Shown here in pieces: positions 4,042 through 32,930 of a stretch of DNA of 32,930 bases. The stretch is taken from positions 1 to 32,930 of the IMG/VR virus record IMGVR_UViG_3300005518_000162; one strand, given 5' to 3'. Position numbers and translations under genes: made by a program. The notes beneath the pieces were generated by a model. That model made no database searches and had not been told where the DNA came from. It saw only the letters and a list, made by a program, of their open reading frames with translations. This stretch comes from a virus. Numbering within the stretch: position 1 is the first letter of the stretch; each line of letters opens with the position of its first letter.

Positions 4042-5595
4042 ATGGACTTCCGTTCGCTGACGGCGGGTGGCCGTCATCGAGCAGACGCCCTGACCGCCGA
4101 GTGGCTCGGCCCGCTGGTCGAGCGCTACCCCGTCAAGTTCTACTGGTTCCTCCAGCACGGCTACCGGCCGCACATCTGGCAGGCCCTCTTCCACGGCGCC
4201 ACGCGGGGCGACACGCTCACGCGCTTCCGCCATCTCGTTGCGGGTCGGCGCGGGGGCAAGACGTTCTCTGCGGCGTGGGAGGTCATCTTCTACGCGATGC
4301 ACCCGGAGGAGTTCCACTGGGATGCGCACGGCGAGGAGAACGGTCGGCCGCTCTGGATCTGGGCGCTCGCTCGAGACAACACGCTCGGCCGCGCCTCGCT
4401 GAACACCTTCATCGAGGTCATCCGACAGGTCGGCCTCATCAAGGACCGCGACTACCGCTTCAACAAGACGGAGAAGGTCTTCGAGTTCTACCGCGGCGAA
4501 GAGCTGCTCTCGACGGTCGAGTTCCGCTCGGCTGACGATCCGCAGCGGCTCCGCGGCGCGGGCCTCGACATCCTCTGGATTGACGAGTCCGCCTTCATCC
4601 CGACACGGGATGCGTGGGACGTAGTCCGCCCGGCGCTCTCCGACAAGCTCGGGATCGTCCTCACCACGACGACGCCGAATGGCAAGAACTGGTTCTACGA
4701 GCAGTTCTTCGTTGGGGAGACGATGAGCGACCCGAATCAGTTCCGGGTCGAGTACACGAGCATCGACAACCCCTACTTCGCACGCGAGGAGTGGGAGGAC
4801 GCTCTTCAGACGTACCACCCGATCATGTTCCGCCAGGAGTACATGGCGGCCTTCGACGCGCTCGCCGGCATCGCCCTCTCAGGCGACTGGCTGAAGTACT
4901 ACGTCCTCGGCAACCCCGACATGCAGGCTGACGAGATCGGCGTCCCCAAGAGTGCCGACGACGGCACGGGGCGCCTTCGCTACGACCTCGACCTCTTCAT
5001 GGGAATCGACCCGGCCATCTCGCTCCGCGAAGACGCGGACGACTTCGCGATGGCCCTCATCGGCATCACCAAGGACAGGACGCAGGCCTACCTGCTCGAC
5101 TACTACCTCGGGCACATCGCTTTCCCGGACCAGCTCGACAAAATTCGCGAGTGGTTCCTCAAGTACCGGCCGCAACTCATCGGCATCGAGTCGAACGCCT
5201 ACCAGCGCGCGCTCCTGCAGATGACGGCCCGGATGGAGGGGCTACCGAACGCGGTGGCTGTCGTCTCCAAGTCGAAGAAGGAAGAGCGCATCCTCGGCCT
5301 CGGCCCGCTCTTCAAGACCGGGCGTATCCGCATTCGCCGGTCCCAGCGCGAGTTCATCGACCAGTGGGTCTCCTACGACCCCGCGATGAAACACCAACAC
5401 GACGACCTCCTGGACGCGGTCGAGATCGCGCTCGGGACCGCCGGCGTGCTCCTGCCTGTCCGTCCCGACGCTTCGGCGTTCGGCGAGGACCGTCGACCGA
5501 AGACGCTGGATGAAGAGGCGTGGCTCGCCGTGCGGCGGGCTCTGAACAAAGGAAAAGACAAGGCCTACGACCCCGAGCTAGGGGATCAGGCCTAG
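4042..5595 (+). CDS. terL: terminase large subunit (packaging ATPase-nuclease)
   Basis: A 517-residue protein that pumps DNA into the prohead and cuts it. The ATPase part shows Walker A at 66-74 (VAGRRGGKT), Walker B at 174-182 (GLDILWIDE, with D181/E182) and the coupling motif TTTPNG at 208-213. The RNase H-like nuclease part shows D323 in GIDPA, E383 in IGIESN and the C-terminal acidic cluster HDDLLDA near 453-459. Length and motif order are normal for the family. ATG 4042 follows a CAGGAGG site. It is the first clearly assignable late gene, and the small-subunit candidate is not upstream but after the portal gene. Confidence 0.95.
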   Translation: MDFRSLTAGGRHRADALTAEWLGPLVERYPVKFYWFLQHGYRPHIWQALFHGATRGDTLTRFRHLVAGRRGGKTFSAAWEVIFYAMHPEEFHWDAHGEENGRPLWIWALARDNTLGRASLNTFIEVIRQVGLIKDRDYRFNKTEKVFEFYRGEELLSTVEFRSADDPQRLRGAGLDILWIDESAFIPTRDAWDVVRPALSDKLGIVLTTTTPNGKNWFYEQFFVGETMSDPNQFRVEYTSIDNPYFAREEWEDALQTYHPIMFRQEYMAAFDALAGIALSGDWLKYYVLGNPDMQADEIGVPKSADDGTGRLRYDLDLFMGIDPAISLREDADDFAMALIGITKDRTQAYLLDYYLGHIAFPDQLDKIREWFLKYRPQLIGIESNAYQRALLQMTARMEGLPNAVAVVSKSKKEERILGLGPLFKTGRIRIRRSQREFIDQWVSYDPAMKHQHDDLLDAVEIALGTAGVLLPVRPDASAFGEDRRPKTLDEEAWLAVRRALNKGKDKAYDPELGDQA

Positions 5596-16069: not shown

Positions 16070-16885
16070 TTGGCGACTGACGCCACGGGCACGCCTACGT
16101 CTCCGGACAACATCCCGAAGTTCAACACGAGCGCGGATGCGCCGTCGGGTCTTGGTGGTAACGCGCAGATGGACGCGATCCAGGCCGCACTGAGCACCCG
16201 GCTCTCCACCCCGGCTGGGATTGTGACGGGCGAAGTCCCGGTCTGGAACGGCTCGACCTGGGTTCGCTCAAGCGTGCTCGGCCTGAGTCCCAGCGGTATC
16301 TCCGGCTACCCGAACGACGCCACCAAGTCCCTGCGCGGCGACGGCTCGTGGGGGAAGACCTCTGAGTTGCTGTGGGACTCGGTCGACGCCGCGGTCACGC
16401 TCCCGGCCGCGACCATGACCACGACCTCACTGCCTCAGACGTTCAAGCATCTGCTAATCGAAGTGAGCGCGCGGGGCGACGTTGTGGCCTTGGCCGCCGC
16501 GCTGCGTATGCGCGTGAACGGAGATTCAACCGCAGCCTGGGACTGGCAGCAGCTGCAGGCCTCTGCAACAGCGGTCACCGCCTCGGAGGGACTCACGGAC
16601 ACGAGTGCGTACGTGGGCGATATACCCGGCGCTAGCGCCGGTACGTTTCGCTTCTCGACGCACACCATCCGCATCGCTGACTACGCGGGCGCGAGCAAGA
16701 GGCATTCCTACACCGGACATTCCAGCGCGGCCGAGGGTAACGGCACGAACGCCTCCGGTGTGACGATCATCCGCCAGTTCGGCGGCACGACCGACAACAG
16801 CACGGCAATCACGACGCTGACGTTCCTGCTCTCTGCGGGCAACTTCGTCGCAGGCACGCGCATCTCGGTCTACGGAGAGGCGTAA
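16070..16885 (+). CDS. tail fibre / receptor-binding protein
   Basis: A 271-residue gene starting at TTG 16070 behind a strong GGAAGGAGG site. The N-terminus (TPTSPDNIPKFNTSADAPSG) is the virion-attachment type found on many actinophage fibres. The middle carries VTGEVPVWNGSTWVRSSV and ATKSLRGDGSWGK, motifs of short repeat-like fibre segments. The C-terminal 150 residues are a beta domain ending TRISVYGEA, which is typical of tail-tip lectin-like domains. It should bind the cell surface as a trimer. Host range would be set here. Confidence 0.72.
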   Translation: MATDATGTPTSPDNIPKFNTSADAPSGLGGNAQMDAIQAALSTRLSTPAGIVTGEVPVWNGSTWVRSSVLGLSPSGISGYPNDATKSLRGDGSWGKTSELLWDSVDAAVTLPAATMTTTSLPQTFKHLLIEVSARGDVVALAAALRMRVNGDSTAAWDWQQLQASATAVTASEGLTDTSAYVGDIPGASAGTFRFSTHTIRIADYAGASKRHSYTGHSSAAEGNGTNASGVTIIRQFGGTTDNSTAITTLTFLLSAGNFVAGTRISVYGEA

Positions 16886-23073: not shown

Positions 23074-23391
23074 ATGGAGGCAGCAAACGAGCGGATCACT
23101 GTCTCTCGCGAAGCACTTCGCGCTGAGCTTGGTGAGCTAGAGCTTCGGCTCGTAGATCGTCTAGCCGACGCGATGGAGCTGAAGGCCGACGCGAAAGAGG
23201 TCGACCAGCTCAAGGACCGAGTCCAGTCACTGGAGCTGGCTCGGGCCGCACGCGAGGAGATGCCGCGCGAACTGTTGACCCTCACGAATCGGGTGGGGGC
23301 GCTTGAGCGCTTTCGCTATGCGTTCCCGAGCCTGGCCGTCGTGAGCTTTATCGCCTCGGTAGTGCTGGGCGTCCTCGTCTACTTCCACTAG
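23074..23391 (+). CDS. XhlA-like membrane-anchored coiled-coil protein
   Basis: A 105-residue gene. Residues 10-77 are a charged coiled coil (ELGELELRLVDRLADAMELK and on) and residues 83-103 are one membrane helix (FPSLAVVSFIASVVLGVLVYF). This is the architecture of haemolysin XhlA-type proteins that accompany holins in phage lysis cassettes. It stands just before the endolysin region, so a lysis role is likely. Its TAG is in the same frame as the next gene (23401), with only three codons between the stop and that gene's CTG. Confidence 0.72.
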   Translation: MEAANERITVSREALRAELGELELRLVDRLADAMELKADAKEVDQLKDRVQSLELARAAREEMPRELLTLTNRVGALERFRYAFPSLAVVSFIASVVLGVLVYFH

Positions 23392-23400
23392 GAGGCACCC

Positions 23401-23664
23401 CTGTCTGAACTCACTCCGGAGCCGATTCCGGTCCCGTCCGTTACCGCGGGCGGCGTCTCGTTTCCGTGCCCCTGTGACTGCTCCAAGCGGTCGTTTCTTC
23501 CTCGCGTAGGCAAGGCGGTGCTTCGGATTCTCCATGACCGTCCCGTCGAGGATGGTCTGAAGAAGCTCGCACCGATCCTCGTCACGCGCGCACTGCTCGC
23601 AGCCGGTGCCGGCGACGGGCTGGTCCAGCTATCGAAGGTCGTGCTCAAGGCGGCGGGGGTCTAG
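23401..23664 (+). CDS. small lysis-region protein with CTG start
   Basis: An 87-residue gene with no ATG, GTG or TTG before residue 41, but an AGGAGG (23390-23395) lies exactly 5 bases upstream of an in-frame CTG at 23401. The product would be MSELTPEPIPVPS, then a Cys cluster (FPCPCDCSK, three Cys) and an amphipathic helical C-terminus (KLAPILVTRALLAAGAGDGL). It stops with TAG directly before the endolysin ATG. The alternative is TAG read-through from the XhlA-like gene, since the frame is shared. Function unknown; position suggests lysis. Confidence 0.65.
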   Translation: MSELTPEPIPVPSVTAGGVSFPCPCDCSKRSFLPRVGKAVLRILHDRPVEDGLKKLAPILVTRALLAAGAGDGLVQLSKVVLKAAGV

Positions 23665-24351
23665 ATGTCTAGGCTCGTTGACGTCTCGAACAACAACGGC
23701 AAGGTCGATTTCAGGGCGGTCAAGGCGCAGGGCGCCGATGGCGTCTACCTGAAGGTCACGGAGGGCACGAGCTTCGTGGACCCCACCTACGTCGCGAACC
23801 GCGCCGCTGCTAAGGCTGCGGGTCTGCGCGTCGGGGGCTACCACTTCGCCCACCCGAAGAACGACCCCGCGGCGGAGGCCGCGTTCTTCCTCTCGCACCT
23901 GATGCTAGAGAAGGGCGATCTTCTGCCCGCACTCGACATCGAGGTCACGGACGGACTCATTGGCACGAAGGTTCACCGCTTCTCGGTGGCGCTTGTCGCG
24001 GCCGTGAAGGAGAAGATCAAGGCCGACCCCGTCACCTACAGCGGCTGCTTCTTCATGCGCGACAACGGACTCCTGGCGCTGCCGGGGCCGAAATGGGTCG
24101 CGTCATACGGCGCTAAGCCCGCCTGCCCCTGGCACGCTTGGCAGTCCACGGACGGTCAGGCGCGCTACGGCGCCAACGTCGACCACCTGGACACCAGCGT
24201 CGTGCCGAGCCTCGCGCTCCTCACGTACAAGGCTCCGCGTCTCAAGAGGGCCATCGGTCATCTGAAGAAGTTCGTCACCGTCGCAGGCTTCCGGGTCCGT
24301 CTCGGTAGTCGGGAATGGCGCTGGATCTTGAAGAACCATCTGAACAAGTAA
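23665..24351 (+). CDS. GH25-family endolysin (lysozyme)
   Basis: A 228-residue gene whose ATG directly follows the preceding TAG. It matches the glycoside hydrolase 25 pattern: LVDVSNNNG (D6) at the start, GVYLKVTEGTSFVDP near 26-40, GGYHFAHP near 57-64, and the catalytic pair D91/E93 in LPALDIEV, with WQSTD near 157-161. It should cleave the N-acetylmuramic acid-N-acetylglucosamine bond of peptidoglycan. The C-terminal 45 residues are basic and could bind the cell wall. No signal peptide is visible, so it would depend on a holin. It is the last gene before the late terminator. Confidence 0.9.
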   Translation: MSRLVDVSNNNGKVDFRAVKAQGADGVYLKVTEGTSFVDPTYVANRAAAKAAGLRVGGYHFAHPKNDPAAEAAFFLSHLMLEKGDLLPALDIEVTDGLIGTKVHRFSVALVAAVKEKIKADPVTYSGCFFMRDNGLLALPGPKWVASYGAKPACPWHAWQSTDGQARYGANVDHLDTSVVPSLALLTYKAPRLKRAIGHLKKFVTVAGFRVRLGSREWRWILKNHLNK

Positions 24352-24363
24352 GTAGCAACGCAC

Positions 24364-24412
24364 AGGCCCCTGGCCTGCCCCTAAAACGGGGTAGGTCGGG
24401 GGCCTATTTTTT
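24364..24412 (+). terminator. strong rho-independent terminator of the late operon
   Basis: Bases 24364-24381 pair fully with 24388-24405 (18 bp, including three G-T pairs) around the loop TAAAAC, followed by A and six T (24407-24412). This is the strongest terminator in the window and marks the end of the late operon, 12 bases after the endolysin stop. Confidence 0.92.
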
Positions 24413-24524
24413 CGTGGTATGTGCCTGCTTTGCAAATGACCCATTCGGGGTACAGCGGGTGTCCCCACGAGCCGATACATTCGGTCCTTGCCCCGCACCG
24501 CTTCGCTCATCATGAAGGAGTCAT

Positions 24525-24881
24525 ATGTCGCGCACGCTTCGCCCCACTTGGTCGCCGAAGGTGCGCTGTCGCACTTTCACAGCGCAAATCCTCGGACTCA
24601 GCCCTGACCGATCAGTGGGCGCGCTCAAGCAGTACCTGTACCAGGCCGAAGCACTACCCAGCCCCGAGATAAAGCTCGACCTCATCATGGTCGAAGACTG
24701 CGCCCACCTGAGCGAGATGGTGGCGCAGGAAGGCTTTCCACTCATGCGCGGCGAGTGGCCGCGGACAGTTCGTTACGTCCAAGTGCAGCGGCACTGGTTC
24801 TACGCCTTCCTCTCGATGCTGCCGCTCCTTGTTCTCTTCGGCGGAGAGGGACAGCTCTGGGACGTCTTCCCGTGGAAGTGA
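24525..24881 (+). CDS. small protein with C-terminal membrane segment
   Basis: A 118-residue gene with GAAGGAG six bases before ATG 24525. Residues 1-85 are soluble (TFTAQILGLSPDRSVGALKQ; LDLIMVEDCAHLSEMVAQEG). Residues 88-104 are a hydrophobic, membrane-like stretch (WFYAFLSMLPLLVLFGG). It stands alone between the late terminator and the tRNA/integrase segment, where phages often keep genes expressed from the prophage, so superinfection exclusion or a similar role is possible, but nothing in the sequence proves it. The stop abuts the 3' end of tRNA-Thr on the other strand. No clear promoter was found in 24413-24524. Confidence 0.65.
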   Translation: MSRTLRPTWSPKVRCRTFTAQILGLSPDRSVGALKQYLYQAEALPSPEIKLDLIMVEDCAHLSEMVAQEGFPLMRGEWPRTVRYVQVQRHWFYAFLSMLPLLVLFGGEGQLWDVFPWK

Positions 24882-24954
24882 AGCCGAAGGTCGGACTCGA
24901 ACCGACGACCCCCGCTTTACGAGAGCGGTGCTCTACCAACTGAGCTACTTCGGC
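24882..24954 (-). tRNA. tRNA-Thr (anticodon CGU)
   Basis: On the minus strand the acceptor GCCGAAG pairs with CTTCGGC and is followed by discriminator T. The D arm holds GCTCAGTTGGTAGAGC. The anticodon stem CCGCT/AGCGG encloses CTCGTAA (anticodon CGT). The T arm GTCGG/CCGAC encloses TTCGAGT. CCA is not encoded. All stems pair well, so it looks functional. It lies 188 bp before the integrase start. tRNA genes are frequent attachment sites, so this may be, or contain, the phage attachment site. Confidence 0.93.
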
Positions 24955-24978
24955 GCCGCCCCAGCATAGCCCCGTGAC

Positions 24979-25024
24979 GGGCCAGTAGAGTGTTACCGGA
25001 CACGCTCCGTACACCTGCTGGCCC
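24979..25024. repeat. 10-bp inverted repeat between tRNA and integrase
   Basis: GGGCCAGTAG (24979-24988) and CTGCTGGCCC (25015-25024) are inverted copies with one mismatch (G-T pairing in RNA) and a 26-base spacer. The place between the tRNA and the integrase suggests an integrase arm site, an excisionase site or a regulatory element. Confidence 0.4.
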
Positions 25025-25086
25025 AGACGGTCCAGTACGAAACGAGTGCAATAACGCAAGTGGACAGCTTCTGTACGGGTGCGAGC

Positions 25087-25114
25087 TAGACAAGATGCAA
25101 AATCTGGCTACACT
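25087..25114 (+). promoter_or_regulatory. integrase promoter
   Basis: TAGACA (25087-25092, five of six matches to the -35 consensus) and TACACT (25109-25114, -10) are separated by 16 bases. The predicted start near 25121 leaves a leader of about 20 bases carrying the AGAGGAGG ribosome site of the integrase gene. The same -10 (TACACT) occurs in the promoter at 26437-26465. Confidence 0.6.
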
Positions 25115-25142
25115 GTGGTCAGACCCCGTCAGAGGAGGCAGC

Positions 25143-25997
25143 ATGGAACTGATCTTCGAGCAGTACGCAGATCGCCTGCGGCGCAAGGCGGCGAAAGGTA
25201 AGCGCAGTCCCCACACGATCACCGGCTTCACGACGGCCGCACGTCGGCTTAGCGAGTGGCTCGCCGACCAGGGCCTGACAGTCGAGACGGTCACGCCTGG
25301 GCTTCTCGAAGAGTATTTCGACACCCTGCCGCTGTCCGCCAGCTCGCAGGCCACGCACCTGCGGCACATCCGGGCGGCCTACAACTACGCGGCCACGAAC
25401 GGCCGCATCACGCGGAACCCGTCGAGCGATCTCGAGCCCGAGGAGGGCGAGCCTCGCGACATCAAGATCATCCCCGTCGAATGCCTGCGGGTGATTCGCG
25501 ACCGCATCCGGCTCGAGCGGGACTGGCTGTGGTTCCACCTGCTCGCCTACACCGGCATGCGCCGGGCAGAGATCATTGGCCTGCGCTGGGAAGAGGGGCC
25601 CGCTGGCGCCTCAGTGCTCGACCTGTCGACGCAGACGATTCGCGTGATCGGCAAGGGGCGAAAGCTGCGCTTGGTCCCGGTCCACCCCGAGCTTGGGGAC
25701 GTGCTCACGCCGGCCCAGCGGGAGGCGGGGAAGTTCGTGATCCCGAGCGACGGCAAGAACGGTGTCGCCGCGCAGACAGTGCAGGAGATGGTAAAGCGTC
25801 TGAGCCCGATCTACACGCCGCACGATTTCCGCCGCACGGTGAACACGAGCCTGCGACGCAACGGCGTGGACGAGAGTGTCCGGAACCGAATCATGGGCTG
25901 GGCACCGAAGGACATCTCGGGCCGCTACTACGACAACGTGGCGGACCCAGAGCTTCACCGCGGAATCCTTAGGCTCTACGCCGACGATCCGCTGTAA
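25143..25997 (+). CDS. int: tyrosine recombinase, phage integrase
   Basis: A 284-residue gene. I chose ATG 25143 because AGAGGAGG precedes it; the frame is open further upstream but crosses the promoter. An N-terminal SAM-like DNA-binding domain (about 1-100) precedes the catalytic domain. Catalytic residues are visible: R140 in TGMRRAEIIGLRW, K171 in GKGRKLR, H227 and R230 in HDFRR, W253 in GW (the usual second His replaced by Trp, as in several recombinases) and Y262 in SGRYYDNV. It would integrate and, with a partner, excise the phage. No excisionase gene is evident nearby. The length is short but complete. Confidence 0.9.
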   Translation: MELIFEQYADRLRRKAAKGKRSPHTITGFTTAARRLSEWLADQGLTVETVTPGLLEEYFDTLPLSASSQATHLRHIRAAYNYAATNGRITRNPSSDLEPEEGEPRDIKIIPVECLRVIRDRIRLERDWLWFHLLAYTGMRRAEIIGLRWEEGPAGASVLDLSTQTIRVIGKGRKLRLVPVHPELGDVLTPAQREAGKFVIPSDGKNGVAAQTVQEMVKRLSPIYTPHDFRRTVNTSLRRNGVDESVRNRIMGWAPKDISGRYYDNVADPELHRGILRLYADDPL

Positions 25998-26106
25998 CAA
26001 AGGGCCCGTAGTAGAGACGGGGCCGGAGAGGCTTCCAACCCCGCACCAACGGAGTCATCGCCTCGGGCCGACCCCGCGCCGGTAACACTACTAAACAAGT
26101 CGGAAC

Positions 26107-26141
26107 AAAAATAGAGCCCCCCAGCCGAAGCTGAGGGGCTC
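26107..26141 (-). terminator. leftward rho-independent terminator
   Basis: GAGCCCCCCAGC (26114-26125) pairs with GCTGAGGGGCTC (26130-26141) with one mismatch around a CGAA loop. On the minus strand it is followed by TATTTTTG, so it ends leftward transcription of the early operon after the winged-helix gene and keeps it out of the integrase. There is no T-run on the plus side. Confidence 0.85.
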
Positions 26142-26182
26142 GTGTCTTCCCGCCAGAGGGAAGAGGCCTGAGCGTAGCGGAG

Positions 26183-26413
26183 CTAGGCCGCGTACGCCAA
26201 GGTGTAGAGGTTCGCTGGACGCCCGAAGGAGGGGTCTTCGCGCCCAACGAGGACGATGTCGCCGGCAGCGGCGAGCTGGTACAGCGACGTCCGCGTGGTG
26301 TTGAGGTTCAGTCCTGCGCGATCTGCGATGGCGGCGGCGGTGAGGCCGCGCTTAGGGCCGCGCTTGAGGACTGAGATGATCGCCTCGGGGGCGGTCTTCG
26401 TTGTGCGAGCCAT
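26183..26413 (-). CDS. winged-helix DNA-binding regulator
   Basis: A 76-residue gene with GAAAGGAG before ATG 26413. Residues 8-50 are a helix-turn-helix (PEAIISVLKRGPKRGLTAAA, then IADRAGLNLNTTRTSLYQLAAAG) and 51-74 a wing (DIVLVGREDPSFGRPANLYTL is partly loop). This is the MarR/ROK-like small wHTH type. It has its own promoter candidate (26437-26465) with an inverted repeat and is the last gene before the leftward terminator, next to the integrase. A repressor or lysogeny switch role is plausible but not shown. Confidence 0.75.
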   Translation of the reverse strand: MARTTKTAPEAIISVLKRGPKRGLTAAAIADRAGLNLNTTRTSLYQLAAAGDIVLVGREDPSFGRPANLYTLAYAA

Positions 26414-26436
26414 TGGCTCCTTTCAGTCAGAGAGTG

Positions 26437-26465
26437 AGTGTAGGACCATTCAGGCGAAAGGTCCA
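26437..26465 (-). promoter_or_regulatory. promoter of the winged-helix gene with inverted repeat
   Basis: On the minus strand TGGACC (26465-26460, four of six -35 matches) and TACACT (26442-26437) are 17 bases apart. The arms GGACC/GGTCC (26443-26447 and 26460-26464) form a 5-bp inverted repeat covering the spacer, a candidate autoregulatory operator. It lies in the 55-bp gap between the protease and winged-helix genes. Confidence 0.5.
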
Positions 26466-26468
26466 GCG

Positions 26469-27143
26469 CTATTCGACTCGGTCCACGAATCCGAGACTCA
26501 GCGCTTCCTCAGCCGACATCCAGTCGTCCGTCTTCTTCCAGCGCCGCTTGATCTGTGTCTTCGTGAGCGTGCTCCGCTCGGCAAGAAGATCGAGCAGACG
26601 ATCCTGGAGCTTGCCGATGAACTTCAGCTCGTCCTCGATCTCCGAGGTCTTGCCCCGTGCTCCGGCGCTGATCTCGTGGATCATGAACCAGGCGTTCGCG
26701 TCCAACACCCGCTCGTCCCCAGCCTGCATGAGGATGGTCGCCATCGAAGCGATCATCCCGATGCCGTGCGTCGTGATGTGGTGGCCCTTGCGCTTCAGGC
26801 GCAGGATCGTGTCGAGCAGCGCGAAGCCGTCGAGCACGTCACCGCCGGGGGAGTTGATCCTGATGACGATTGGCTCCCCGGGGTCGCGCCGCTCCCAATG
26901 TTCAAGCATGTCGATCCAGGAGTCCACGGCGTTGCCGTAGATCGGAGCGAAGATGTTGAGCTGCCGATAGGTGCGGCTGCCAGGCTTCGCGAGGCGGTCG
27001 GCCTCGGCATCGCGCATCTTCGCCAGCTCCATCTCATGCGCCTCGGCGCTCGCTGCCTCGGAGCGGACTTCGTGCTCGAGCTTGGCGATCTTCAGCTCGG
27101 TCTCTCTCGCCCGCAGATCGCGCAGCGTGTTCAGGTCGGTCAG
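26469..27143 (-). CDS. ClpP-like serine protease (S14 type), CTG start
   Basis: A 224-residue gene if it starts at CTG 27143, which follows AAGGAGAGG and overlaps the previous stop as CTGA. The next in-frame ATG is at residue 38, just before the protease domain. Residues 5-55 are a charged helix or coiled coil; 60-224 are a ClpP fold with INSPGGDV (97-103), nucleophile S133 in GMIASMATIL, H156 in AWFMIHE and D206 in KKTDDWMSAEEA. All three catalytic residues are present. In phages this family is usually the prohead protease beside the capsid gene; here it is in the early operon on the other strand, so another substrate is possible. Confidence 0.85.
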   Translation of the reverse strand: MTDLNTLRDLRARETELKIAKLEHEVRSEAASAEAHEMELAKMRDAEADRLAKPGSRTYRQLNIFAPIYGNAVDSWIDMLEHWERRDPGEPIVIRINSPGGDVLDGFALLDTILRLKRKGHHITTHGIGMIASMATILMQAGDERVLDANAWFMIHEISAGARGKTSEIEDELKFIGKLQDRLLDLLAERSTLTKTQIKRRWKKTDDWMSAEEALSLGFVDRVE

Positions 27144-27514
27144 TTCATCCTCTCCTTCAACTTGGTCAGTAGTCGTCGCCCGAGACGTACGACTCGAAAG
27201 CGCCACCACATTTGGTGCTTCCAGAAGCGAAGCGTGAAGTGGTGCCAGGACAGGCGCGCCGTCTCCGGAGTGCTCAGAAACCCGAGAACTCGGAGGAAAA
27301 TCATGAAGCGCCAATAGTTCATCGTGATGAAGTTGCGGCCAACGCCCTTCACGATTCCGGTGAAGGTGAGTGGCCGCACATCCCAGGCGTCGTACGCGCT
27401 CAGCCATCTCTGGCCGCTGATGTAGAAGTGCTGTGGCCAGGGTGTGTGCGGTACTTCGCGACCGTCTACCGTCGTGAATACGATGTCCTGGTAGCCGCGC
27501 GGTAAGGCCCTCAC
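27140..27514 (-). CDS. hypothetical basic, Trp-rich protein
   Basis: A 124-residue gene. I chose GTG 27514 because GGGAG precedes it and it overlaps the exonuclease stop as GTGA. The longer open frame upstream overlaps the exonuclease gene in Arg-rich shadow sequence. The N-terminal half looks soluble (RGYQDIVFTTVDGREVPHTP; GQRWLSAYDAWDV). The C-terminal half is rich in Trp, Phe and Arg (WHHFTLRFWKHQMWWRFRVV), perhaps membrane-associated or nucleic-acid-binding. No family recognised. Confidence 0.6.
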   Translation of the reverse strand: MRALPRGYQDIVFTTVDGREVPHTPWPQHFYISGQRWLSAYDAWDVRPLTFTGIVKGVGRNFITMNYWRFMIFLRVLGFLSTPETARLSWHHFTLRFWKHQMWWRFRVVRLGRRLLTKLKERMN

Positions 27515-28089
27515 GGCTCCCAGAGGGTCGGTGGTTTCAGGATTTCGGCGTCGAGCAGGGCCTGACGCATCTCCTTGTGCATGACGACGTCCTGTGTGAC
27601 GCGCTTCAACGTCAGCGCCACCCCGTCGGGGCTGAGGCGCGTGGCCCTGCGCCACTTGGCATCGTTCATCTTGAACTTCGATTCCGCGAGGTCGAGCATC
27701 TCAGCCAGGTTCTCCTGCGACTTGCTCAGTCCGGAGAACTCGATCAGGTCGATCTTCGTGTCCTGTGCGAGCTTCTTCTCAAGCGGCGCGAGGCCGTACT
27801 CGATCAGTGCGCCGTTGATGAGGGGCAGGTCGAACTTGCGGATGTAGTGACCCGTCACGATGTCAGCCTCGGCGTACAGGTCGGTGAAGTAGAGAAGCAT
27901 GTCCACGACGTCGTACTCCGGCTGCGCCCAGACGTGGACCTTCTTCTCGCCGACGAACGAGGCAGCGATAGCTGTGGGCTCACTGCCCTTCGGGGAGAAG
28001 CGGCCAGCTTCGTAGAAGCCGACGAGCCGCGTTTCGATGTCGAAGTCGAGCACCTTCAGCTCGCGCTTCGGAACGAGCAAGCTAGTCAT
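27511..28089 (-). CDS. DEDD-family 3'-5' exonuclease
   Basis: A 192-residue protein from ATG 28089, whose start overlaps the previous stop. It carries the three exonuclease motifs of the RNase H-like DNA polymerase proofreading type: Exo I VLDFDIETR (D17, E19), Exo II TGHYIRKFDLPLI (D87) and Exo III RVTQDVVMHKEM (D167). No polymerase domain is fused or seen next to it, so it is a stand-alone exonuclease, as in many actinobacteriophages. It could proofread the phage or host polymerase, or act in recombination. The longer upstream frame is rejected because it runs into the previous gene. Confidence 0.85.
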   Translation of the reverse strand: MTSLLVPKRELKVLDFDIETRLVGFYEAGRFSPKGSEPTAIAASFVGEKKVHVWAQPEYDVVDMLLYFTDLYAEADIVTGHYIRKFDLPLINGALIEYGLAPLEKKLAQDTKIDLIEFSGLSKSQENLAEMLDLAESKFKMNDAKWRRATRLSPDGVALTLKRVTQDVVMHKEMRQALLDAEILKPPTLWEP

Positions 28090-28378
28090 CTCGGTCGCAT
28101 TCCGACTGTGCCACCCCACCGGGCTTAGAGAAGTCGAAGCAGTCCAAGAACTTCTCCAGGTCCTGCCCTATAACGTGCAGGACGGCCCTGACAGCCTTCA
28201 ATCCTGCGACGAGTTCTTCTGCATCCTCTCGATTCTTCGCGTACTTGTAGAAGACAACGTCCACCGCTCCCTCAGCGTTCTTGCGCCCAATCTGGCCATC
28301 TCTATCGAGCAGTAGACGAGCAACCTGAGGCTCTAGATGCAGACGGCTGTAGATGAAGTGCTCATCCAACAACGGCAT
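28082..28378 (-). CDS. hypothetical protein
   Basis: A 98-residue gene with CGAGGAGCTGG before ATG 28378. The product is mixed helical with LHLEPQVARLLLDRDGQIGR, a segment FYKYAKNREDAEELVAGLKA, and a charged C-terminus (SECDRDD). No Cys cluster or membrane segment. It overlaps both neighbours by a few bases, as usual in this operon. Unknown function; location next to the exonuclease suggests a DNA-related role. Confidence 0.62.
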   Translation of the reverse strand: MPLLDEHFIYSRLHLEPQVARLLLDRDGQIGRKNAEGAVDVVFYKYAKNREDAEELVAGLKAVRAVLHVIGQDLEKFLDCFDFSKPGGVAQSECDRDD

Positions 28379-28607
28379 CCAGCTCCTCGGCGATGACCGC
28401 CTCGATCTGAGTCAGATGCGCCGGGCCTAGCTCGAGCAACTGGCCCGCACTCAGCGCCGACTCGAACTCATCCTGCAGCGGGGGCAGAATCCGGTTCAAG
28501 GCGCGAGCCCTGGCCTGAGACGTCCGCATGTTCGCGATGAACTGAACCGTCGTGCGGATCTCGTTCCACGCAATCTCTGCTTCGGTCTTTTCGGTGTAGC
28601 GGCTTAT
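28362..28607 (-). CDS. small helical protein with apparent ATA start
   Basis: An 81-residue gene. The frame has no ATG, GTG or TTG until an ATG at residue 27. A GGAGG lies 4 bases upstream of an ATA at 28607, which overlaps the preceding TAA as ATAA, the same arrangement as the ATGA, GTGA and TTGA overlaps around it. The translation from ATA is coherent (SRYTEKTEAEIAWNEIRTTV, QFIANMRTSQARARALNRIL) and helical, Ala/Glu-rich. If the ATA is not used the protein would be 55 residues from ATG 28529. Function unknown. Confidence 0.55.
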   Translation of the reverse strand: MSRYTEKTEAEIAWNEIRTTVQFIANMRTSQARARALNRILPPLQDEFESALSAGQLLELGPAHLTQIEAVIAEELDAVVG

Positions 28608-28873
28608 GCGTCCTCCAGTTTCGGTGTGGTTCTCTTCAGGAACTCGTTCAGCCTGAAGCGACGGGCCCTAGCGCGGCCCTTCTCGGTCTGTAGCAGGGCA
28701 CGGTCCTTCGCCCTCTTGCGGTCGCGCAGGGTCTCCTCGTACCGCTCTAGGCCCCGGCGGACGGTGGCCTCGTTGACGCCCAGTAGGCGGGCGACCTCAC
28801 GGTTCGAGCGGCGGGATCGGCTTCGGCCAGCGAGCGCGGCGTAGACCTGCGGCTCGAAGGTCGAGCGCCTCAA
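28604..28873 (-). CDS. HTH DNA-binding protein
   Basis: An 89-residue gene starting at TTG 28873, overlapping the previous stop as TTGA. Residues 21-46 form an HTH (RRSNREVARLLGVNEATVRR). The remainder is very basic (RDRKRAKDRALLQTEKGRAR). It follows directly the two sigma-like genes, and could be a transcriptional regulator or a DNA-packaging or replication accessory protein; the basic tail favours DNA binding. Confidence 0.7.
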   Translation of the reverse strand: MRRSTFEPQVYAALAGRSRSRRSNREVARLLGVNEATVRRGLERYEETLRDRKRAKDRALLQTEKGRARARRFRLNEFLKRTTPKLEDA

Positions 28874-29190
28874 GTGCCCTCGGTCATGTGGTAGGCGACC
28901 TCCTCGATGGCGTAGCGGTAGCGCTTAGTCACGGCGGTCTGGCTGATCTGGAGAAGCCGGGCGGTTTCGTATGTCGTGAAACCGATGAGGCCTGCGAGAA
29001 GCACGACCTCCCAGTACTCGTCAGAGATCAGCTCCAGCGCGCGGTCAAGATCACTGCGTCGAGCGAGCCATTCGAGACCGCGGGGACGTGTGCCCTCCAG
29101 CTCTCTCAGGTGCTCGTAGTGCTCGATCAGTGCCCGAACTTCGTCCTCCGAATACCTACCCGCGCTCGGCTTCGATGCCACGGAAGTCAT
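28870..29190 (-). CDS. sigma-factor region-4-like HTH protein
   Basis: A 106-residue gene from ATG 29190; the frame is open further upstream but overlaps the previous gene. Residues 13-50 are helical; 50-98 look like sigma region 4: ALELISDEYWEVVLLAGLIG (in place of L-ERE-VL-L-Y) then FTTYETARLLQISQTAVTKR (HTH, 71-90) and RYAIEEVAYHM. It lacks region 2, which is encoded by the overlapping upstream gene. Together they may form a split phage sigma factor, similar in idea to Bacillus SigO-RsoA. No ribosome site was seen, so translation is probably coupled to the upstream gene. Confidence 0.65.
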   Translation of the reverse strand: MTSVASKPSAGRYSEDEVRALIEHYEHLRELEGTRPRGLEWLARRSDLDRALELISDEYWEVVLLAGLIGFTTYETARLLQISQTAVTKRYRYAIEEVAYHMTEGT

Positions 29191-29461
29191 CGAGCGATAG
29201 GAGGGTTTCGTAGGCGAGCGGTTCGCCGTTTCGGTTGCGGCCGACCTGAGCGCCCTCAAGACGCACGTACGACCTCATCCGGTACTCGATCTGTTCAGTG
29301 CTCGGATCGACGCCCCGTGCGAGGCTCTGCCAGATGTGGATGAGGCCTTCCTGTTCGAGATCATCCACCTGCACGCCGATCTGAGCAGCCACCGCCCCGC
29401 GCGATATGCGCAGAGCGATGGCCTGGACCGCCTCGCGGTATCCCGCGATTGCGGCGTCCAT
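29156..29461 (-). CDS. sigma-factor region-2-like protein
   Basis: A 101-residue gene from ATG 29461. Residues 8-47 match sigma region 2.1-2.2: YREAVQAIALRISRG, then VDDLEQEGLIHIWQSLARG (33-49, the D-L-QEG-I-LW-A motif). The next part (IEYRMRSYVRLEGAQVGRNR) follows region 2.3-2.4 in place (F-YA-RIR-AI). There is no region 4 or HTH; the next gene (28870-29190), overlapping by 35 bases in the +1 frame, supplies it. The pair probably directs host RNA polymerase to phage promoters. Whether it binds polymerase on its own is unknown. Confidence 0.65.
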   Translation of the reverse strand: MDAAIAGYREAVQAIALRISRGAVAAQIGVQVDDLEQEGLIHIWQSLARGVDPSTEQIEYRMRSYVRLEGAQVGRNRNGEPLAYETLLSLDDFRGIEAERG

Positions 29462-29473
29462 GCTGGTCAGTGC

Positions 29474-29848
29474 TTAGAACGGAATATCGTCCTCGTCCTC
29501 AGCGTCGGCGGCCGGCTCGTCAGTGTTGACGGTCTCGACTTCCTGACCCGCATCGAGCGTGCCGAGGTTGAGGATGTTGGTGACGGAGAGGTTGTTGTAC
29601 GTGACCTTCTCTCCCTGACCGTTCGTGCCTTCGTTGCGCGAGAACTTGCCTTCGAGGACAACGAAGTCACCCTTGCCGACCTCGACGTGCGCGTGGGACG
29701 GCCAGAGAGTGGCGCCGACCCGGAGCGACTGCTCCTTCACGCCGCCGGTGCGGACGGTGATGTTGCGAACGTCCTTGCCGCCAGCCTGCCCCTCGCGGGG
29801 GTCAAACTGGACCACACCGATAAGGGTCCGGTACTGATTTTCAGCCAA
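29474..29848 (-). CDS. ssb: single-stranded DNA-binding protein
   Basis: A 124-residue gene starting at TTG 29848 with AAAGGA upstream; the longer upstream frame is rejected as it overlaps the nuclease gene in shadow sequence. The body is an OB fold (RTLIGVVQFDPREGQ; GDFVVLEGKFSRNEGTNGQG; VTYNNLSVTNIL). The C-terminus is acidic and ends EDEDDIPF, the classical SSB tip that recruits replication proteins. It would protect single strands during phage replication and recombination. It lies between a PDDEXK nuclease and the sigma-like genes. Confidence 0.85.
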   Translation of the reverse strand: MAENQYRTLIGVVQFDPREGQAGGKDVRNITVRTGGVKEQSLRVGATLWPSHAHVEVGKGDFVVLEGKFSRNEGTNGQGEKVTYNNLSVTNILNLGTLDAGQEVETVNTDEPAADAEDEDDIPF

Positions 29849-29852
29849 GTGG

Positions 29853-30266
29853 CTAGTCCTTTCTGTAGAACTCGTCGTAGAGGCGGACGAAGTAGTCCCA
29901 GTCCATGCGGGCGACCTCGTCTCCATCAACTTCGTGCGTGGTGACTTCCCCGAAGGCGTCCATGCCTCCGGTCATCGCGCCGGTCTCGAGCATGATCCAG
30001 AGCGCTGAGTGCATCTGCACCCTGTCGCGCCCGTTGTGGCCGCGCTCCTTCAGCGCCAGGACCGGGTGTTGCCCGACCTTCTCGGCGTTCTCCTTCGCCT
30101 GGCGCCAGTCCTCGGTCAGCCAAACGAAAGTCTTGTAGCTCTTGACCTCTAGGCCGACGCAGATGTCCACGCAGTCCGGGAGATCGCGGCCGGTTGGTCC
30201 GGTTCGTTCGCCGCCCAGCTCGCGGCACTTCTGTAGCTCGATGACCTTCCAGCGCTTACTCGCCAT
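29853..30266 (-). CDS. PDDEXK-type nuclease, Holliday-junction-resolvase-like
   Basis: A 137-residue gene from ATG 30266. It shows a PDDEXK core: E10 region (WKVIELQKCRELGG), PDCVDI with D31/D34, then LEVK with E40 and K42, and a Q-containing helix (DWRQAKENAEKVGQHPVLAL). The RELGGERTG start resembles phage resolvase-like nucleases in this operon position. It likely resolves branched DNA or trims recombination intermediates. Its start overlaps the small membrane gene by 11 bases. Exact substrate unknown. Confidence 0.72.
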   Translation of the reverse strand: MASKRWKVIELQKCRELGGERTGPTGRDLPDCVDICVGLEVKSYKTFVWLTEDWRQAKENAEKVGQHPVLALKERGHNGRDRVQMHSALWIMLETGAMTGGMDAFGEVTTHEVDGDEVARMDWDYFVRLYDEFYRKD

Positions 30267-30432
30267 CGCACTTCCGGCACTTCTCGGCGATCAGGCGCCA
30301 GCCGATCAAGACCATGACGGCGATGAGAAGCGCCGCGAAGAACACGAGCCGCCCGTCGACCGGGTGGAAGTAGAGATGCGGGGAAGGGCCTTGTGCGGGA
30401 TGACCGAGCCCGCGAGGCACAAAGCCCGACAC
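30256..30432 (-). CDS. small single-pass membrane protein
   Basis: A 58-residue gene from GTG 30432, whose first base is shared with the previous TAG (TAGTG). A Pro/Gly/His-rich N-terminus is followed by one hydrophobic helix at about 30-45 (LVFFAALLIAVMVLIGW) and a Cys-containing charged end (EKCRKCDGE, a C-x2-C pair). It may be anchored in the membrane with the CxxC tail on the cytoplasmic side. No family recognised. A membrane protein inside the replication operon is unusual. Confidence 0.6.
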   Translation of the reverse strand: MSGFVPRGLGHPAQGPSPHLYFHPVDGRLVFFAALLIAVMVLIGWRLIAEKCRKCDGE

Positions 30433-30845
30433 TACGGGCCTGCCAAGCTGGACAGGTCCTCGTCGCTCAGCGTGGTGCTGAACGGCCGGACGTAGTAGCG
30501 CCGCTTCGCGTAGCTGTAGGTCTGTGTCTCGAAGACCTGCTTGCCTATCTGAACGAGGTCTCCAGGCTGTAGCCGGCGCTGAACGCCGGCCTGGATGATC
30601 TCGTGGGACGAGAGGTAGTACTGGTCGTTCTCGATGAACGCCTTCACGCCTTCGAGAACGGGGATCTCGGGGATCTCAGTCTCGCCCCGGACGATGCGTT
30701 CCTGGTGTCGAACGATGTTGCTCTCCCAGTGCTCGTCCGGCTCAGCGTTCGAGATGTAGTCGGTGCGCTCTCCGCAGACGGGGCATGCCTGGAACTTGAA
30801 GTCAATCGGGAATGACCCGTGCAGCACGCAGCGGCGGGCAGCCAC
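30432..30845 (-). CDS. hypothetical protein with zinc-ribbon-like N-terminus
   Basis: A 137-residue gene starting at GTG 30845, directly after the primase-helicase stop. The N-terminus has C6, C21 and C24 (CVLHGSFPIDFKFQACPVCG), a zinc-ribbon-like arrangement with H9 as possible fourth ligand. The rest is mixed (HWESNIVRHQERIVRGETEI; KQVFETQTYSYAKRRYYV) and ends acidic. A DNA-binding accessory to replication is plausible from position; no family recognised. Confidence 0.65.
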   Translation of the reverse strand: MAARRCVLHGSFPIDFKFQACPVCGERTDYISNAEPDEHWESNIVRHQERIVRGETEIPEIPVLEGVKAFIENDQYYLSSHEIIQAGVQRRLQPGDLVQIGKQVFETQTYSYAKRRYYVRPFSTTLSDEDLSSLAGP

Positions 30846-32204
30846 TTAGAAGGGATCGTCCTCCTCAGGTAGTTGGACCCGAACCTCGCCCTTCTCCACA
30901 TCGCCGACGATCTGCGCGTGTAGGTGCGCCGTCTGTCGGCGGGGCTTGCTCGGGAAGATGTTCAGGATTCCGGTTTTGTTGCCCTTGCGATCCTCGGCAG
31001 CGATGACCGAGATTTCCTGGTCGGAGGCGTTTCGAATCGCTCCGGCGCCTCTCGACCCGCCACCGCCCTTCACCGAGTGGTGGACGACGATGACGCCGGC
31101 GTTCGTCTCACGCGCGATGGGGATGACGCCGCCCTTCATGAGCAGTGTCATGGCGTCGTTCGAGTTCTCCTCCGCGCCGAGAGCGACACGACTCAGAGAG
31201 TCCACGATGACGAGCGCAGGCTCGATCTCGATGGCCTCCTCAAGCAGCTTCTCCGGCTCGTGGATGAGGTCAACTCCGGCGTACCAGATGTACTCCAGAT
31301 CGGAGTGCTTCTTCGGGTCGTAGCCGAGGGCATGCAGGCGCTGGTGGGCCAGCGCCCGGCTGTTCTCCTCGTCCACGTAGATGACCGGGCCGTGCCGCTT
31401 GATCGGCAAGCCCAGGAACGTCTCGTCCCCGCCGGTGACGGCCAGGGACAGGGCCTGCATCAGGAACGTCTTGCCCACCCCGCCGTCGGCAGCGAGGACT
31501 GTGGCCTCGTTCGCCACGACGAAGTCCTCCACGATCCAGTCCGTGTCGGGCACGGGCTGATTCAGGTTGAGGCGCGGGTAGTGGCGGACGGGCTCACCCG
31601 CCCGCTTGAGCAGGACGTGGAACGCGGCCCAGTCATAGGTCTGAAAGAACTCGGCCGCATCGCTCGTACCCTTCGGCAGGCGCACGCGCCGGGCCTTACG
31701 GCCCAAGCTCGCCTTGACCTTCTTCCAGCCGCGCTCGACGGACTCCGCGGCGTCGGGGCTCTCGTACGGGTCATCGTTGTCGGTGACGAAGAAGACACGC
31801 TTCGCCTTGCCGAACAGCTCCTCGGCGTACTCGTCCTTCCAAGCGTCCGTCCCGGACATCCCCAGCACCCTGGTCTTCCAGGTGTCGGTGGCCGCCTGCC
31901 AGGCTGCCATCGTGTCGGTCTCGCCCTCGAAGACGATCAGCTGCGAGGCGTCGTTCTCGAAGTGCGGCGGCAGGAACGGAACCTGCCCCGGTGTGGTGCG
32001 GTTGCCTGCGGCATCGGTCCACCAGAACTTCCGGCCGTCGCTCTTCTCGAAGCCCTTGCGGAACTTCGTCATGCCGCGCGGGTACGGGATGATGGTGAGG
32101 TCGGGTTCGTCAGTGCCGGATGTGAGCCCGAAGGCCTCTAGCGTTTCTCGGCGGATACCCCGCCGATCATCGAACCAGCGGAGCGCCGCGGGGCTAAGCC
32201 CCAG
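30846..32204 (-). CDS. Toprim primase - RecA-type helicase, CTG start
   Basis: A 452-residue gene if it starts at CTG 32204, with AAAAGG six bases upstream. The frame's first ATG (32072) would remove 44 residues that match the usual start of such proteins (SPAALRWFDDRRGIRRETLE, then IIPYPRG). The Toprim part shows E93 in VFEGETD and D142/D144 in VTDNDDP. The helicase part shows Walker A AADGGVGKT (238-246), Walker B LVIVDS (331-336) and a VVHHS motif (374-377). It should unwind DNA and perhaps synthesise primers at the fork. The N-terminal zinc-binding and RNA-polymerase domains of full primases are not visible. The C-terminus ends EEDDPF, like an SSB tip. Confidence 0.82.
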   Translation of the reverse strand: MGLSPAALRWFDDRRGIRRETLEAFGLTSGTDEPDLTIIPYPRGMTKFRKGFEKSDGRKFWWTDAAGNRTTPGQVPFLPPHFENDASQLIVFEGETDTMAAWQAATDTWKTRVLGMSGTDAWKDEYAEELFGKAKRVFFVTDNDDPYESPDAAESVERGWKKVKASLGRKARRVRLPKGTSDAAEFFQTYDWAAFHVLLKRAGEPVRHYPRLNLNQPVPDTDWIVEDFVVANEATVLAADGGVGKTFLMQALSLAVTGGDETFLGLPIKRHGPVIYVDEENSRALAHQRLHALGYDPKKHSDLEYIWYAGVDLIHEPEKLLEEAIEIEPALVIVDSLSRVALGAEENSNDAMTLLMKGGVIPIARETNAGVIVVHHSVKGGGGSRGAGAIRNASDQEISVIAAEDRKGNKTGILNIFPSKPRRQTAHLHAQIVGDVEKGEVRVQLPEEDDPF

Positions 32205-32406
32205 GGCCGACCTTTTCTAGCCGCATCCAAGCAAGGCCCTTCGTTGTCACGAACAGAGTGCCTCCATCCGTTGTCTGCACTAGAAGCACGTCCCCGCCAT
32301 TCAGGTACAGCGGCCAGTAGTTGTGGGCAACCTCGTAGCGCTGTGGCTGCAGGCCTCCGTATGCGAGGGTGAGGCTCTTCGGCGGCTTGCTACGCCGCCG
32401 GAGCAT
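32194..32406 (-). CDS. small hypothetical protein
   Basis: A 70-residue gene from ATG 32406, overlapping the previous gene by 17 bases and the next by 11. The translation is coherent (KSLTLAYGGLQPQRYEVAHN, WPLYLNGGDVLLVQTTDGGT) and mainly beta-like, with no Cys or membrane segment. No ribosome site is obvious, so translation may be coupled. Unknown function; position between the coiled-coil gene and the helicase suggests a replication role. Confidence 0.6.
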   Translation of the reverse strand: MLRRRSKPPKSLTLAYGGLQPQRYEVAHNYWPLYLNGGDVLLVQTTDGGTLFVTTKGLAWMRLEKVGPGA

Positions 32407-32635
32407 CGGTCAGGATTCGCTGTGCGCGCACGGCCGATGAGTGCGGGTTGCCGGGCTCGCTGACGAGAGCATGTAGGGCCTGCTCGACGCGCTCAAGCCG
32501 TGTGCGCAACTGGCCCTCGACGCCGACCCAGGGCTCGTGGCTCTGGATCTGTCTCTCAAGTCCGTCGACACGGGTGTCGAGTTCGTAAACGAGTGCCGCG
32601 ACTTCTGCGAACTCGCTCGGGTCGATCCAGCTCAG
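32390..32635 (-). CDS. coiled-coil protein with CTG start
   Basis: An 81-residue gene with no ATG, GTG or TTG in the first 45 codons, but AAGGAGG lies 7 bases upstream of an in-frame CTG at 32635, which overlaps the previous gene's TGA as CTGA. The product (SWIDPSEFAEVAALVYELDT, then RVDGLERQIQSHEPW and a helix RTRLERVEQALHALVSE) is a charged coiled coil with a flexible end. Structural or scaffolding role in the replication complex is possible; not recognised. Confidence 0.65.
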   Translation of the reverse strand: MSWIDPSEFAEVAALVYELDTRVDGLERQIQSHEPWVGVEGQLRTRLERVEQALHALVSEPGNPHSSAVRAQRILTDAPAA

Positions 32636-32930
32636 GTTGTGACCTCCTTGTTCTGATCGAACGCAGGGAACTGCGGTGCCTCACCTTGGAGGCGCATCAG
32701 GATTTTCGCCGTGACCTTGGACCAGCAGCGCTTGCAGCCGCCGTACCGCTCGGCCTTGTCGTCCACGTACACGCTGCCCCCCGGCTTGCCTTCCTTTGTC
32801 CAGATATCCACGAAGGTCAGGCCGTGCTGATCGAGCAGGTCGCGGATGTACTGGATCTCGTTGGCGACGATCTCGGGGGACCGACGCTCCGATGTCCAAG
32901 GATCGTACGGGGACAGGCGGGCGCTGAAGA
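32632..32930 (-). CDS. HAD-superfamily protein, C-terminal part
   Basis: The frame is open from the window edge to TGA at 32632-32634, so the N-terminus is outside. The visible 98 residues contain IQYIRDLLDQHGLTFVDIW, then TKEGKPGGSVYVDDKAERYG. The order (helix with hydrophobic Ile/Leu, W-T-KGKP, VYVDD-A) fits the end of HAD-like phosphohydrolases, with VYVDD as motif IV and the Lys in KGKP as motif III. A Cys pair (GGCKRC) follows. Substrate cannot be told from this part. It is the furthest upstream gene visible in the early operon. Confidence 0.6.
   Translation of the reverse strand, partial: FSARLSPYDPWTSERRSPEIVANEIQYIRDLLDQHGLTFVDIWTKEGKPGGSVYVDDKAERYGGCKRCWSKVTAKILMRLQGEAPQFPAFDQNKEVTT

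Follow-up and report, generated by a model that had tools for sequence, protein, structure and literature searches.

CTG and other near-cognate codons probably act as start codons in an uncultured phage and its relatives

We analysed a 32,930-base stretch of viral DNA (IMG/VR record IMGVR_UViG_3300005518_000162; hereafter the window), in which four genes appear to begin with the codon CTG. The window has 64% GC and carries terminase, portal and podovirus-like structural genes, a lysozyme-like gene, an integrase adjoining a tRNA-Thr gene, and a tightly packed replication operon on the minus strand. Queries with the window helicase, ClpP, portal and terminase matched many uncultured relatives in IMG/VR, and the family with near-cognate starts comprises dozens of contigs from uncultured, soil-type bacterial viruses. 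Twelve relatives were read, each as a nearly complete record or a large piece (they are given here by G and L numbers; L013 is G008), and all sequences compared are metagenomic assemblies. The window helicase had no match among 50,697 phage records, and the window terminase had remote matches only, with no cultured phage close to it.

The four CTG codons lie where an earlier note on this DNA had placed them, and the Shine-Dalgarno (SD) motifs that it had described 5–8 bases before each were verified together with their spacings. On the plus strand, the CTG at 23401 opens a small gene of 87 amino acids that belongs to no family (23401..23664), with AGGAGG (23390..23395) embedded in the TAG of the upstream gene at a spacing of 5; the product is predicted to begin (M)SELTPEPIPVPSVTAGG... 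On the minus strand, the CTG at 27143 opens a ClpP-like head maturation protease of 224 amino acids (PF00574, phrog_94; 26469..27143) at a spacing of 8 from AAGGAG (27152..27157), the CTG at 32204 opens a primase/helicase of 452 amino acids with Toprim_2 and AAA_25 domains (30846..32204) at a spacing of 6 from a moderate motif, AAAAGG (32211..32216), and the CTG at 32635 opens a second small gene of 81 amino acids (32390..32635) at a spacing of 7 from AAGGAGG (32643..32649). The CTGs at 27143 and 32635 overlap the upstream stop as CTGA, again as had been claimed.

The first ordinary start comes late in each of these frames: it is a GTG at 23518 in the gene at 23401 (codon 40 of 87), an ATG in ClpP (codon 38 of 224), an ATG in the helicase (codon 45 of 452), and a TTG in the gene at 32635 (codon 43 of 81). 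Without the CTG, both small genes would thus be shortened by about half and the helicase by 44 residues. In-frame stops lie 3 codons upstream of the CTG at 23401 (TAG), 4 codons upstream of that at 32204 (TAG) and about 16 codons upstream of that at 32635. Gene callers such as Prodigal accept ATG, GTG and TTG only, and the expectation that automated annotation would truncate or miss these proteins holds for the small genes and the helicase. It does not hold in that form for ClpP: this frame stays open upstream of the CTG, so software would be as ready to extend it to an ATG at 27407, giving 312 amino acids, as to truncate it.

A fifth near-cognate start in the window, an ATA at 28607 on the minus strand, had been overlooked in the earlier note. 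It opens an 81-amino-acid gene (g28362; 28362..28607, minus strand), overlaps the upstream TAA as ATAA, and follows the SD motif GGAGG at 28612..28616 (minus strand). The gene is conserved in relatives, and all four phages that carry it (the window, L003, L012 and L013) have ATA at this site, overlapping the upstream stop as ATAA or ATAG, with proteins that are 43–65% identical starting at the ATA residue. The start model described below, which is fitted by expectation-maximization (EM), gives this ATA a posterior of 0.93.

Homologues that start downstream and lack the N-terminus had been named as the observation that would speak against the CTG starts; where homologues exist, they start instead at the CTG or within about 3 codons of it. 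The sole homologue of the 23401 gene, in G008, shares 38% identity across all 87 amino acids and has an ATG exactly at the CTG residue (MSEV.. against LSEL..), with an SD in both. For the helicase, the codon aligned exactly with the CTG is ATG in L054 (TAG GGA GGT GAT ATG), GTG in L014 and ATC in L012 (TAA ACC ATC), and the starts in L003, L010 and L013 lie within a few codons of it. The ClpP homologues start within about 3 codons of the CTG, at GTG in L012, at ATG in L013 and most likely at an ATC following AAGGAGG in L003; the stretch of N-terminus that would be lost with an ATG start shows partial conservation with L003. For the 32635 gene product no protein homologue turned up, but at the junction that follows gene 32632 the window, G006, G008 and G009 have GGAGG-N7-CTGA, and G007 has ATGA. 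CTG at the same position in related phages, as the earlier note had suggested looking for, is therefore seen at the 32635 junction but not at the other sites, which carry ATG, GTG, TTG or ATC. Taken together, the comparison with relatives supports each of the four CTGs as a start.

Start codons also vary among relatives at genes that begin with ordinary codons in the window. The large terminase subunit (4042..5595, plus strand) starts with ATG in the window, and its orthologues fall into two groups. In the first (N-terminus M[DN][FY]RSLxAGG), the start is ATG in the window, G001, L096, L124 and L126, GTG in G006, L006, L097 and L098, TTG in L091, L005 and G007, and CTG in G008, L090 and L094; one residue earlier lies a CTG in L106 and a TTG in G010, and several members have an in-frame stop 0–5 codons upstream. 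In the second (MPxFHSR), it is ATG in L130, G016, L149, G017, L144 and L140, GTG in L143, TTG in L119, CTG in G009, L109 and G011, ATT in L114, and ATC, or ATA just before it, in L134 and L135. A tail-region gene (16070..16885, plus strand) behaves likewise at one boxed site, with TTG in the window, G001 and G017, ATG in G006, G013, G016 and L099, ATC in G008, ATT in G009 and ATA in G011, most of them with an in-frame stop 0–5 codons upstream. The single-stranded DNA-binding protein (SSB) starts with TTG in the window, ATA in G001 and G007, and CTG in G008, and the C-terminal half of a split DNA polymerase (PolA) starts with ATG, GTG, TTG, CTG or ATC. The rare codon itself is conserved among homologues for g28362 only; at the other sites it switches. 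An SD is often present at these orthologous sites as well. Both the start positions and their interchangeability are read from aligned sequences. By eye, sigma-factor-like proteins begin with CTG in G001 (638, minus), G007 (17824, plus) and G008 (4186, plus) and with ATA in G006 (12029, minus), and no upstream coupled gene is called at these starts.

Start-codon usage was estimated with a start finder that accepts every sense codon and learns codon, SD and spacing by EM together with coding potential. As controls we used 505 genes of seven phages (mycobacteriophages Bromden, D29 and Ariel, phiC31, phiKMV, P23-45 and a Rhodobacteraceae phage). In the five closest phages (340 genes), the model assigned 128 starts to ATG, 54 to GTG, 48 to TTG, 24.2 to CTG (2.6-fold over background) and 10.8 to ATA (12-fold), with 0.1 for CTC, which is synonymous with CTG. 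The controls gave 0.1 for CTG, 0 for ATC, 0.1 for ATT and 9.8 for ATA (3.3-fold), with the noise codon TTA at 4.0-fold. When CTG was forbidden as a start, the cost was 14.4 ln units for the close phages, 9.4 for other high-GC relatives and 0 for the controls, while forbidding CTC cost nothing in the close phages; for ATA the costs were 19.6, 8.0 and 4.5 ln units, respectively. Mismatches at position 2 were virtually absent (AAG and ACG near zero, AGG 1.6), and in the low-GC relatives CTG starts were virtually nil (0.1 of 382 genes). In a second test that makes no SD or codon assumption, no ATG, GTG or TTG start fitted the coding extent, at a loss of more than 6 nats, in 28 of 304 genes of the close phages vs 7 of 430 in the controls. 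By both tests the close phages have such starts more often than chance would give, and the earlier note, which had called four CTG starts in about 33 kb notable, understated the case, as ATA, ATC and ATT are used too. Roughly one gene in ten in the phage group appears to begin with one of these four codons.

The model also has noise, with noise codons reaching 2–4-fold, so the low-count ATC and ATT are judged from the boxed orthologous sites; because ATA is mildly enriched in the controls too, the EM evidence for ATA by itself is weaker than the homology evidence. Several EM starts were rejected on inspection, namely a CTG at window position 29130, an ATA at G006 9173 (with an ATG beside it), an ATA at G008 14038 and a GTA at G001 40429, and G010, whose gene calls look wrong-strand, was dropped from the last run. 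For three of the four window CTGs, the case is one of homology and junctions, not of EM.

A curated list of 22 near-cognate starts (in which the coordinate G008 29587 was mis-set, the ATC being at 29596) was compared with canonical starts. An SD of at least 5 bases precedes 91% of the near-cognate starts vs 73% of ATG starts; the site at G008 9438 has none. Of the 22 near-cognate starts, 15 have an upstream stop nearby (−30 to +15 nt), vs 53 of 108 ATG starts. The difference is not significant (Fisher P 0.26 against all canonical starts); coupling may contribute, but a specific requirement for it at near-cognate starts is not supported. No tRNA-Met gene or CAT anticodon was found in the window and the seven less distant relatives scanned, and an altered initiator tRNA supplied by the phage was rejected on this ground. 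A search for known RNA elements, which covered the window and parts of three relatives, yielded tRNAs only. The window tRNA-Thr(CGT) (24882-24954, minus strand) is complete, adjoins the integrase and is likely an attachment site. Some relatives have similar tRNA genes, and G014 (L073 9631-12354) carries 18 tRNA genes in an array that includes no tRNA-Met gene.

On balance we favour the reading that the four CTGs and the ATA at 28607 are genuine starts at which the near-cognate codon is rescued by the SD in a lax host. The family would use, at appreciable frequency, the full set of start codons with a first- or third-position mismatch to ATG (GTG, TTG, CTG, ATA, ATC and ATT). A long, well-placed SD, usually adjoining or overlapping the upstream stop, would hold the 30S subunit, and the ordinary fMet-tRNA (anticodon CAU) would be accepted despite one mismatch, with the middle U pair kept; pairing with this normal anticodon predicts the observed restriction of mismatches to positions 1 and 3 together with a strong SD. 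The host initiation machinery would be less discriminating than that of E. coli, for example through weaker IF3 proofreading. The free exchange of ATG and near-cognates in the terminase, SSB and helicase, which are essential genes, suggests weak selection on the identity of the start codon, and this near-neutrality is why we prefer a permissive host. That the N-terminal residue is fMet, that coupling plays a role and that the host is lax are what we infer from these patterns. Several observations weigh against this reading: of the five window sites, only 28607 and 32204 have an EM posterior above 0.6, the model also proposed the implausible CTG at 29130, ATA is enriched beside TTA in the controls, coupling is not significantly commoner at near-cognate starts than the roughly half seen for ATG, the helicase SD is only moderate, and CUG is a poor start codon for E. 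coli ribosomes (PMC11497404).

Selected attenuation, in which a near-cognate start is a deliberate brake on the individual gene, as in infC, pcnB and ccpN, and the host has normal stringency, seems to us an unlikely account, albeit the strongest competitor. Four phages share the ATA of g28362, and in S. aureus conserved AUA and AUU starts with an extended SD give about 10–30% of AUG expression (PMC13009471). For most genes here, however, the codon is not conserved, and the terminase, SSB, helicase and gene 16070 swap codons in no evident gene-by-gene pattern. Still less probable is pure termination-reinitiation, by which a ribosome that has just terminated restarts at the upstream stop of packed operons and codon identity carries little weight. 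At all five window sites an upstream stop is no more than about 11 nt away, and several sites overlap it as CTGA, ATAA or ATAG, but near-cognate starts are not significantly more coupled than canonical ones, no upstream stop is called near G001 638, G006 12029, G007 17824 and G008 4186 (where an upstream gene may have been missed), and the control phages with overlapping genes show no CTG.

We consider it very improbable that the CTGs are ordinary leucine codons followed by real ATG, GTG or TTG starts downstream. CTG is common in DNA of 64% GC and SD-like strings arise randomly, but the homologues begin at or beside the CTG with the N-terminal residues kept, and coding potential starts at the CTG while synonymous CTC gives no such signal. 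Sequencing or assembly errors, or decaying genes, can be practically dismissed: every sequence is a metagenomic assembly, but the same codon classes recur at the same sites in independent contigs from many samples with unbroken frames, and errors would show no preference for positions 1 and 3 of the start codon over position 2.

More tentatively, and with somewhat less than even confidence, the phages may belong to a bacterial lineage with natively relaxed start selection, in which all six codons with a single mismatch at position 1 or 3 are routine; under that proposal, the phages would reveal a host in which IF3, the initiator tRNA or the 16S P-site check is altered. In the host search, the sole GTDB match was an 8.5 kb phage contig in a Dehalococcoidia metagenome-assembled genome. 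The terminase was found at E<=1e-60 in none of the other genomes among 393 of the Dehalococcoidia class, and the window tRNA-Thr matched Chloroflexota at no more than 89%, so a host assignment is not supported.

The split polymerase has features of its own. In 12 of the 12 relatives read, family A DNA polymerase consists of two separate genes broken at the same motif (..TGRMSS | xNFQNIPRDD..), with other genes between them; the split was noted in L061, L062 and L072 and in the relatives G001, G006-G014, G016 and G017. A LAGLIDADG-like open reading frame lies beside the break in G014, and no known intron family was found in the three regions searched. Near the start of the C-terminal half, the frame changes in G001 (~6866), G010 (~13068) and G013 (~24910; coding-strand coordinates), and the change in G013, at TAT TGA C, recalls +1 frameshift sites. 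These frame changes may be assembly errors.

Starts of this kind are already known, and in E. coli infC starts with AUU. The S. aureus near-cognate starts (infC, ccpN, citZ AUA, cvfC1 AUU), described as conserved regulatory brakes in a study that lists four non-canonical starts for the whole genome (PMC13009471), resemble those described here in having a position-1 or position-3 mismatch rescued by a strong or extended SD, and AUA and AUU are used in the phage family too. Unlike those four per bacterial genome, about five occur here in a single phage contig of 33 kb; they open structural and replication genes, and the codon differs from relative to relative. The sites share their architecture and their interchangeability with ATG with the GTG and TTG starts of high-GC bacteria and phages, but in this family CTG, ATA, ATC and ATT join the exchange. 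The CTGA, ATAA and ATAG overlaps, with the SD inside the upstream gene, likewise resemble ATGA, GTGA and TTGA coupling, except that the restart codon is not ATG, GTG or TTG and coupling is not specifically enriched. Among 68,906 published ancestral starts, 4 switched to CUG and 2 to AUU (PMC5622118). A density such as that seen here has no precedent in the literature checked: no report of it in phages, nor of free exchange across a virus family, was found in the open-access literature searched.

A strict choice of start codon is regarded as almost universal among bacteria, and the terminase, SSB, helicase, protease and tail-region genes of this family would follow a looser rule. The proteins of such phages would be systematically truncated, over-extended or missed in annotation. 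The matched orthologues of the family would also allow the worth of a start codon to be measured, and the host may be unusually loose in reading start signals.

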